Made by a program: the position numbers and the translations under genes
Source of the DNA: Echinicola jeungdonensis
GTDB taxonomy: Bacteria > Bacteroidota > Bacteroidia > Cytophagales > Cyclobacteriaceae
DNA length: 64,000 bases
Assembly: GCF_030409905.1 (NCBI RefSeq)
Contig: NZ_JAUFQT010000001.1
Span: forward strand, 952,001-1,016,000
Direction: 5' to 3'
The notes under the pieces: model-generated
Told to the model about the DNA's origin: nothing
Seen by the model: the letters and a program-made list of their open reading frames with translations, nothing else
Database searches by the model: none
In this document: piece after piece, positions 12,521 through 12,780 of the stretch
Layout: each line of letters begins with the position of its first letter
Numbering within the stretch: position 1 is the first letter of the stretch

Positions 12521-12552
12521 AAAAAAGCTATGAATAGAACCCATAGCTTTTA
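12521..12552 (-). terminator. Terminator of the tRNA-like gene
   Basis: AAAAGCTATG / CATAGCTTTT stem followed by a T-run on the minus strand, about 30 bp after the tRNA-like 3' end. Confidence 0.8.
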
Positions 12553-12582
12553 GTCAATTAACAATAAACCCAAAATAACCTG

Positions 12583-12706
12583 CTGTAGGGGAAGGATTCG
12601 AACCTCCACGGGGCAGTTAGGCAAAACACGAGCTCGATATTTGCTTTTTCCTGGACTCCCCACCTCTGAGACAGAGAGGCATGTCTGCCAGTTTCAACAC
12701 CCTACA
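12583..12706 (-). tRNA. tRNA-like gene: class-II body, GUC anticodon, 55-nt variable region
   Basis: On the minus strand: 7-bp acceptor TGTAGGG / CCCTACA with discriminator G; a D arm of the leucine type (TTGAAACTGGCAGACA); a 5-bp anticodon stem CCTCT/AGAGG enclosing CTGTCTC, which gives anticodon GUC (Asp); a T arm GGAGG-TTCGAAT-CCTTC. Between anticodon and T arms lie 55 nt (12608-12662) that can fold into a long imperfect hairpin (GGGG/CCCC base, GCAAA/TTTGC upper stem, CG-AGCT-CG tip). Normal class-II arms are roughly 10-24 nt, and Asp tRNAs have short ones. CCA is not encoded. A matched promoter and terminator indicate it is transcribed. Pair 10-25 is T-T and base 37 is T, both unusual. 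It may be a functional odd tRNA, a tRNA mimic or a decaying gene. Confidence 0.6.
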
Positions 12707-12748: not shown

Positions 12749-12780
12749 CAAACGTAATACACACTTGATTAATTTTCAAA
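12749..12780 (-). promoter_or_regulatory. Promoter of the tRNA-like gene
   Basis: On the minus strand TTTG (12777-12780), 20-bp spacer, TACGTTTG (12749-12756): an exact Bacteroidota -33/-7 promoter. Transcription would start about 35 nt before the tRNA-like 5' end. Confidence 0.65.

Follow-up and report, generated by a model that had tools for sequence, protein, structure and literature searches.

The window analyzed here, a 64,000-nt stretch of the genome of Echinicola jeungdonensis (contig NZ_JAUFQT010000001.1, positions 952,001–1,016,000), carries a 124-nt tRNA-like RNA on its minus strand at 12583–12706. The initial annotation had described a full cloverleaf at this place, and its coordinates and strand were right. 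The 7-bp acceptor stem, assigned from the sequence, the alignment and base counts across the family, is formed by the 5' strand UGUAGGG (12700–12706; U1 G2 U3) and the 3' strand CCCUACA (12584–12590), and the discriminator base G73 is at 12583. U8 and G9 are followed by a D arm with the Leu-type loop AAACUGGCAGA (12681–12697), an anticodon arm (12663–12679) with a 5-bp stem and the loop CUGUCUC (bases 32–38, with GUC at 12670–12672), and a canonical T arm (12591–12607) with a 5-bp, nearly invariant stem and the loop UUCGAAU. The usual tertiary bases (U8, A14, G18 G19 and the UUCGA of the T loop) are present. The variable region (12608–12662), 55 nt if T44 and all following bases up to the T stem are counted, consists of a 4-bp base stem, an internal loop, a 7-bp inner stem and the tip CGAGCUCG. 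Its internal loop reads GGAAAAA in this copy, whereas most relatives have GGAUAAA.../CUAAC. The D stem of this copy begins with a U-U mismatch; in most relatives this pair is U-A or A-U and covaries, and in 7 of the 41 aligned rows it is unpaired. The initial description of a tRNA resembling class II, in which a Leu-type body is combined with G73 and an anticodon loop like that of tRNA-Asp, was borne out.

General tRNA models hardly recognize this element. RF00005, the Rfam tRNA model, fitted the whole cloverleaf with 29.9 bits, barely reaching its gathering score of 29, and the elements in eight related loci scored below it; our family model (R1) gave 146.9 bits. No other Rfam family reached its gathering score over the element (the best named match was sraL, 20.3 versus 39 bits), and in the eight related loci no non-tRNA match rose above gathering over the elements. 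ARAGORN, which had been suggested as a check, called three tRNAs in the window but missed this RNA.

The RNA has its own promoter and terminator. Upstream, in a block kept between the copies of this genome, TTTG (12780–12777) and TACGTTTG (12756–12749) are separated by 20 nt; we take this minus-strand element (12749–12780, TTTG-N20-TACGTTTG) to be a promoter on the basis of the Bacteroidota consensus. On the other side, a 32-nt tail, GGTTATTTTGGGTTTATTGTTAATTGACTAAA (12549–12580), which occurs once in the window and is kept from copy to copy, lies just ahead of an intrinsic terminator, AAAAGCTATGG...TTCATAGCTTTTTTT (12521–12552), at the end of the conserved cassette. The genome contains 11 full-length copies (138–148 bits with R1) and two damaged ones at locus L360 (38 and 25 bits). 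The nine copies compared resemble one another between roughly −120 and +190, counted from the 5' end, and far less outside these limits. Their conservation is thus restricted to the stretch between promoter and terminator, and what is repeated is the transcription unit, in agreement with the dedicated unit proposed initially.

Some observations concern altered copies and tails. Both damaged copies (L360:4199–4295 and L360:5115–5181) retain the acceptor, T arm, conserved tail and terminator, most of the remainder being swapped for unrelated sequence; a promoter-like stretch lies upstream of the first. In some relatives the copies form tandem arrays; where near relatives were examined, the conserved tail came after the final copy of the array. 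A different conserved tail, GGTTTATAATTGGTTAG, occupies the place of the Echinicola tail downstream of the RNA at L086, L087, L114, L178 and L182, with hosts that include Mucilaginibacter, Arcticibacter and Daejeonella. A palindromic element, TCCCGATAGCTATCGGGA, has taken the place of part of the D arm and anticodon arm at L023:1682–1813, L023:1862–1993 and L015:1386–1435, and it is also found within the arm of the L063 copies.

The structure was supported by comparison of 41 aligned relatives, in which 98.4% of cells were paired and 13 of the 31 pairs had changed on both sides. None of 500 shuffles reached either value, and slid structures gave at most 62.5% pairing. All cloverleaf stems had compensatory support except the T stem, in which only one pair varies and on one side only. 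Compensatory changes in the extended arm, for which the initial annotation had proposed a search, were found in both stems (three of the four pairs of the base stem and five of the seven of the inner stem). Folding energy of the 12583–12706 sequence alone (z of −1.62, with 12 of 200 shuffles folding equally well) is weak evidence, and the comparison with relatives is decisive. Because compensatory changes extend across the stems and the arm, the RNA is not a decaying gene; that suggestion of the initial annotation is also refuted by the 11 full copies and by conservation across orders. A selfish or decaying repeat without function, which might be suspected from the dispersed copies, the two damaged copies and the palindromic inserts in relatives, is contradicted by the covariation as well as by the wide conservation and the intact phage copies, and is highly improbable. 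A mimic of the 16S 3' end (CCUCCUUUCU, which resembles the anticodon arm of some copies) was also considered and rejected, because the anticodon stem covaries to CCGCC, CCCGC, CCCAC and others.

The family is not confined to Echinicola. The 41 sequences on which R1 is based came exclusively from genomes assigned to the own family of the window (f1). Among 194 genomes of the order, R1 found matches in 184 at E <= 1e-6 and in 139 at E <= 1e-14. Among the matches listed in a scan of 296 genomes of the phylum, ordinary tRNAs of 82–86 nt scored at most about 60 bits and long-arm members 70–148 bits; thus, the E <= 1e-14 level excludes ordinary tRNA-Leu. Other families of the class also have long-arm members, as does one family (f66) of another class. 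When named genomes were scanned with a sequence pattern, at least 80 loci were obtained, and each of 80 compared with R1 had a match above 80 bits. The hosts named among the matches listed include Mucilaginibacter, Pedobacter, Chitinophaga, Hymenobacter, Spirosoma, Dyadobacter, Saprospiraceae and one Ignavibacteriales genome; the host genera belong to Cytophagales, Chitinophagales, Saprospirales and Sphingobacteriales. Total length ranges from 95 to 196 nt, and nearly all of the difference lies within the arm. An arm-less 76-nt relative (L359:1839–1914, loop CTATCTC) occurs in an AsnA-bearing genome, with no AsnC-type gene found in the 4-kb stretch that contains it.

Viral contigs also carry the RNA. 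The pattern scan gave at least 80 viral loci; of 80, 79 matched R1, including two in which the RNA is truncated at contig ends (L262, 61.8 bits; L295, 86.6 bits), and one, L269, had no R1 match. Of five recurrent neighboring proteins that were scanned, four belonged to phage families (terminase large subunit, portal, PhoH-like protein and exonuclease), and the fifth matched none. ARAGORN was run on 34 of the 80 loci and called at least one gene in 19 and at least five in 13 (tmRNAs included). In several arrays the RNA is 3–9 nt from tRNAs, and in six phages (L234, L251, L259, L292, L300 and L311) it lies 4 nt downstream of a tRNA-Ser. In L284, where ARAGORN called the tRNA-like RNA itself, as tRNA-Asp, CCA is encoded in the RNA and in all five surrounding tRNAs. 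Locus L305 contains the RNA together with 21 tRNAs, a tmRNA and a GOLLD RNA. Taken together, the sequence comparisons provide good support for a real family that is widespread in Bacteroidota and their viruses. A literature search, which covered titles and the beginnings of abstracts and in which subscription papers fell mostly outside coverage, revealed no description of it.

The phage copies have an additional feature in the arm, in which the motif GACCA occurs in 53 of 57 distinct phage and 62 of 206 distinct host sequences. Within the 16 nt that follow GACCA in phage loci L234–L313, 34 of 41 distinct windows contained a perfect palindrome 6 nt or longer, with 8.0 expected and 0 of 2000 shuffles reaching this number; 20 different palindromes were seen (GCGCGC, GCATGC, GTGCAC, TTCCGGCCGGAA and others). 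In host windows palindromes were as frequent as expected (9 of 50 versus 9.2). For whole arms the counts were 42 of 49 in phages (29.7 expected), 91 of 179 in hosts (92.1 expected) and 28 of 31 in the own-family alignment (12.9 expected), the last of these being one clade that shares GAGCTC. Only for phages is the position-specific test convincing, and it suggests a phage-specific pairing between copies through these palindromes.

Base counts were made over distinct sequences, 206 from hosts and 57 from phages. G73 and G2-C71 are present in all 263, U1-A72 in 205 and 54, and A20a (U20a is absent) in 205 and 57, respectively, whereas G10 is found in only 40 host and 7 phage sequences and is replaced by U10 in the 12583–12706 copy. 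CCA after G73 is encoded in a minority (23 host and 4 phage sequences, L284 included). In the anticodon loop, U35, C36 and C38 occur in all 94 model-found members (alignment A3), the only rows that test these bases, since the search pattern behind the phage and named-genome rows already demands U35 C36 N C38; the same 94 rows have U33 in 78, G34 in 79 and U37 in 81. In 199 host rows (A3 and A5), which are not independent species, base 33 is U in 169, G in 13, C in 11 and A in 6; base 34 is G in 171, A in 16, U in 7 and C in 5; and base 37 is U in 172, C in 20 and G in 7. One anticodon-stem mismatch occurs in 30 of these rows. The 78 phage rows are more uniform (G34 in 78, U33 in 75 and U37 in 76).

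This loop, C-U-N-U-C-U-C, is the loop of tRNA-Asp and tRNA-Glu with A37 changed to U, as judged by comparison with phage tRNA-Asp and tRNA-Glu; G34 or A34 would fit Asp, and U34 or C34 would fit Glu. Decoding tRNAs are expected to have a purine at base 37. This RNA has U instead, and U33, although present in the 12583–12706 copy, is not conserved. A decoding function, as a second Asp isoacceptor or as an inserter of another amino acid at GAC/GAU, would agree with GUC and U33 in most phage copies and most host rows, with the canonical D- and T-loop bases and with the presence among phage tRNAs. However, hosts show variation at bases 33 and 34, and U predominates at base 37, where most of the phage tRNA-Asp genes listed have A, in the loop CUGUCAC. 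In addition, seven phages (L259, L266, L267, L292, L300, L305 and L311) already have an ordinary tRNA-Asp alongside the RNA. Judged from these bases, the RNA is probably not an ordinary decoding tRNA, and we consider either form of decoding improbable. The normal tRNA-Asp offered as one option initially is weakened on the same grounds and by U1-A72 in place of G1-C72. It is very likely that we are dealing with a conserved functional RNA that acts outside ordinary decoding.

The conserved bases can be compared with known identity elements. Bacterial AspRS recognizes G73, G10, G34, U35, C36 and C38, with G2-C71 as a minor element (PMC9976931). The 12583–12706 copy carries G34, U35, C36, C38 and G73, with the reservation that G34 is not universal in hosts. 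U1-A72 is described as the amidation mark read by GatCAB (PMC4206432, PMC9976931), and G1-C72 and U20a are described as blocking amidation (PMC9976931). Both Asp and Glu are amidated by GatCAB. The tRNA-like RNA has the mark and lacks both blocks, and the tRNA-Asn of the window likewise has U1-A72 and G73. Two other carriers were considered and rejected. For a seryl carrier, PMC9976931 lists G73, C72, G2-C71, C11-G24 and a large variable arm as tRNA-Ser identity, and the SerRS marks C72 and C11-G24 are missing, with A72 and U11-A24 in this copy and all 41 rows of alignment A1. For a leucyl carrier, the LeuRS mark A73 is missing.

A gene for an Lrp/AsnC-family protein was often located next to the RNA. 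It adjoins the RNA in 42 of 91 loci (0 of L001–L032, 6 of L033–L038 and 36 of L060–L113) and, in a second set that shares one locus with the first, in 57 of 96 (47 of 80 from named genomes and 10 of 16 others). It is divergent from the RNA in every case and, in the second set, at most 400 bp away. It was not found at 88 of 187 loci, among them all 31 examined loci of L001–L032, which include copies of the Echinicola genome; among the 39 loci of the second set without it, there were at least 900 bp of room in 31 and less in 8. The best NCBIfam match of two such proteins was AsnC, below cut-off (157 and 166 versus 227 bits), and the best PDB match of one was E. coli AsnC (2cg4, 112 bits; next 85.6). 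E. coli AsnC responds to asparagine and controls asnA. Beyond the AsnC-type gene, sufB was present at 11 loci (L033–L036, L038, L067, L069, L103, L107, L109 and L112, at the last within a longer frame), and eight loci (L033–L035, L038, L067–L069 and L103) have a fadD-like gene downstream of the RNA, each name resting on one protein. The initial annotation contained neither this frequent neighbor nor the multicopy state, the phylum-wide spread and the carriage by phages.

To relate the RNA to asparagine enzymes, we used the same 119 genomes of the class throughout. The long-arm RNA occurs in 21 of them, GatB in 88, AsnA in 6, E. coli-type AsnB in 16 and AsnRS in 96. GatB was present in 21 of 21 genomes with the RNA and in 67 of 98 without it (Fisher p 0.0017; 11 GatB negatives were inferred from absence in the list of positives), and none of the 21 genomes with the RNA encodes either AsnA or an AsnB of the E. 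coli type, against 19 of the 98 without it (p 0.023); these p values ignore shared ancestry. AsnB was scored with model NF006949, checked on part of E. coli AsnB, instead of TIGR01536, whose AsnB-like matches in 112 of 119 genomes are uninformative. Within GatB-containing genomes the synthetase contrast (0 of 21 versus 4 of 67) is uninformative as well. A predicted link with AsnRS was not found in this set (18 of 21 with the RNA versus 96 of 119 overall), AsnRS being missing from the RNA-bearing genomes G571, G581 and G607. Families f23, f24 and f70 each include one genome that lacks both the RNA and GatB beside genomes that have both: G099 (f23) has AsnA and AsnB, G621 (f70) has AsnA, and G114 (f24) has neither synthetase. 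In f71 and f102, one genome each lacks the RNA though GatB stays. G536 has the RNA and GatB, with no AsnA or AsnB-like match at the limits used. G071, which has AsnA, contains only the arm-less 76-nt relative and was counted as RNA-negative.

As the best, though tentative, explanation we propose that the RNA is a non-decoding carrier, controlled by asparagine, on which GatCAB amidates the aspartate loaded by AspRS. It is favored by the AspRS-type bases and the GatCAB mark, by the AsnC-type neighbor, by the link with GatB and the lack of AsnA and E. coli-type AsnB in genomes with the RNA, by the phage copies close to tRNAs (with CCA in L284), and by the variation at bases 33, 34 and 37. The sequences themselves show the family, its structure, the identity-type bases, the neighbor, the co-occurrence with GatB and the presence in phages; from these we infer that the RNA is charged and amidated, kept from decoding, relieved of its asparagine and regulated. 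The RNA would be processed as a tRNA, be given CCA and work outside codon reading. AspRS would load it with aspartate, or perhaps, in the few lineages with U34 or C34, GluRS with glutamate. GatCAB would read U1-A72 and amidate the amino acid, giving asparagine on the RNA; U37, the drift at bases 33 and 34 and the arm would keep the product off the ribosome, and asparagine would be released into the free pool. The AsnC-type regulator, divergent from the RNA at what appears to be the ancestral locus, would tune its transcription.

Several observations speak against such a carrier. Two further Asp identity elements, G10 and G1-C72, have been lost. G34, which AspRS needs, is missing in 28 of 199 host rows, so that charging in these cases would have to be done by GluRS or some other enzyme. 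Many genomes have GatB but not the RNA (67 of 98), and, because AsnB-like proteins occur in 20 of 21 genomes with the RNA, another source of asparagine is possible. The failed prediction for AsnRS, the 88 loci at which no AsnC-type gene was found, the scores of the AsnC-type protein below the AsnC cut-off and the small share of copies that encode CCA also count against it. A broader version, which we regard as possible but rather doubtful, would make the RNA a phylum-wide cofactor that bears AspRS and GatCAB marks, is barred from decoding and yields free asparagine under AsnC-type control; infected cells would receive it from phage copies, which would pair with one another through their variable palindromic tips.

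The same identity bases, AsnC-type neighbor and GatB link would also be expected of a regulatory tRNA mimic that binds AspRS, GatCAB or the AsnC-type protein and tunes or reports Asp/Asn supply, and is not an asparagine carrier. The initial annotation had named a mimic and a mis-decoding tRNA without choosing. The several copies with their own promoter and terminator and the conserved 3' tail of some hosts point in this direction, and Bacillus cereus offers a precedent in a pseudo-tRNA that lies within a larger regulatory RNA (PMC3399842). However, the phage copies sampled have no conserved tail and are often found in tRNA arrays, and the intact acceptor end, the CCA in L284 and the kept amidation mark suggest charging. 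Such a mimic is somewhat unlikely. It is quite unlikely that the cloverleaf serves only to protect or process a small RNA whose arm or tail acts on RNAs or proteins: this would account for the conserved arm motifs (GGAUAAA/CUAAC and GACCA) and the tail of some hosts, but the acceptor and anticodon-loop bases are better conserved than the arm, in which nearly all of the variation in length from 95 to 196 nt lies, and the arm-less L359 relative has none.

The RNA differs from the closest known systems. The tRNA-Asn of tRNA-dependent asparagine synthesis (Deinococcus, Thermus and Bdellovibrio) shares U1-A72 and G73 with it, and there too GatCAB occurs beside AsnRS; in contrast, our RNA has Asp-type C36 and C38 instead of GUU, a class-II arm and U37, and it would need no non-discriminating AspRS. 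With bacterial tRNA-Asp it shares U35, C36, C38, G73, G2-C71 and, in most members, G34, but it has U1-A72 for G1-C72, no fixed G10, mostly U37, a Leu-like D arm and the long arm. With bacterial tRNA-Leu it shares the D-loop type and the two bases left unpaired between variable arm and T stem; it differs in having G73 for A73, no Leu anticodon and, in most members, a much longer arm. The bacterial Y RNA YrlA is a case of tRNA mimicry, and the present RNA, unlike YrlA, has no non-tRNA Rfam match above gathering. In PMC3399842, tRNAOther of Bacillus cereus is likewise tRNA-shaped and said to be non-translational, but it comes from an unrelated lineage, where a genomic island is proposed to encode it within a longer regulatory RNA. 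Long variable arms are also found in other unusual bacterial tRNAs, the allo-tRNAs and selC-like tRNAs, some of them in polycistrons, but these have a longer acceptor branch (8/4 or 9/3 in allo-tRNAs) than the 7/5 found here (PMC7609411).

Bacteroidetes are among the clades represented by 18 genera that have AsnRS, GlnRS and GatCAB without an Asn synthetase (PMC4206432). If the RNA were indeed a carrier, this would explain why GatCAB is kept beside AsnRS in many Bacteroidota and would provide them with a source of asparagine. A tRNA used as a cofactor, and not as an adaptor, would be a new job for tRNA. Carriage by phages suggests that the RNA matters during infection, and the question is testable in two systems.
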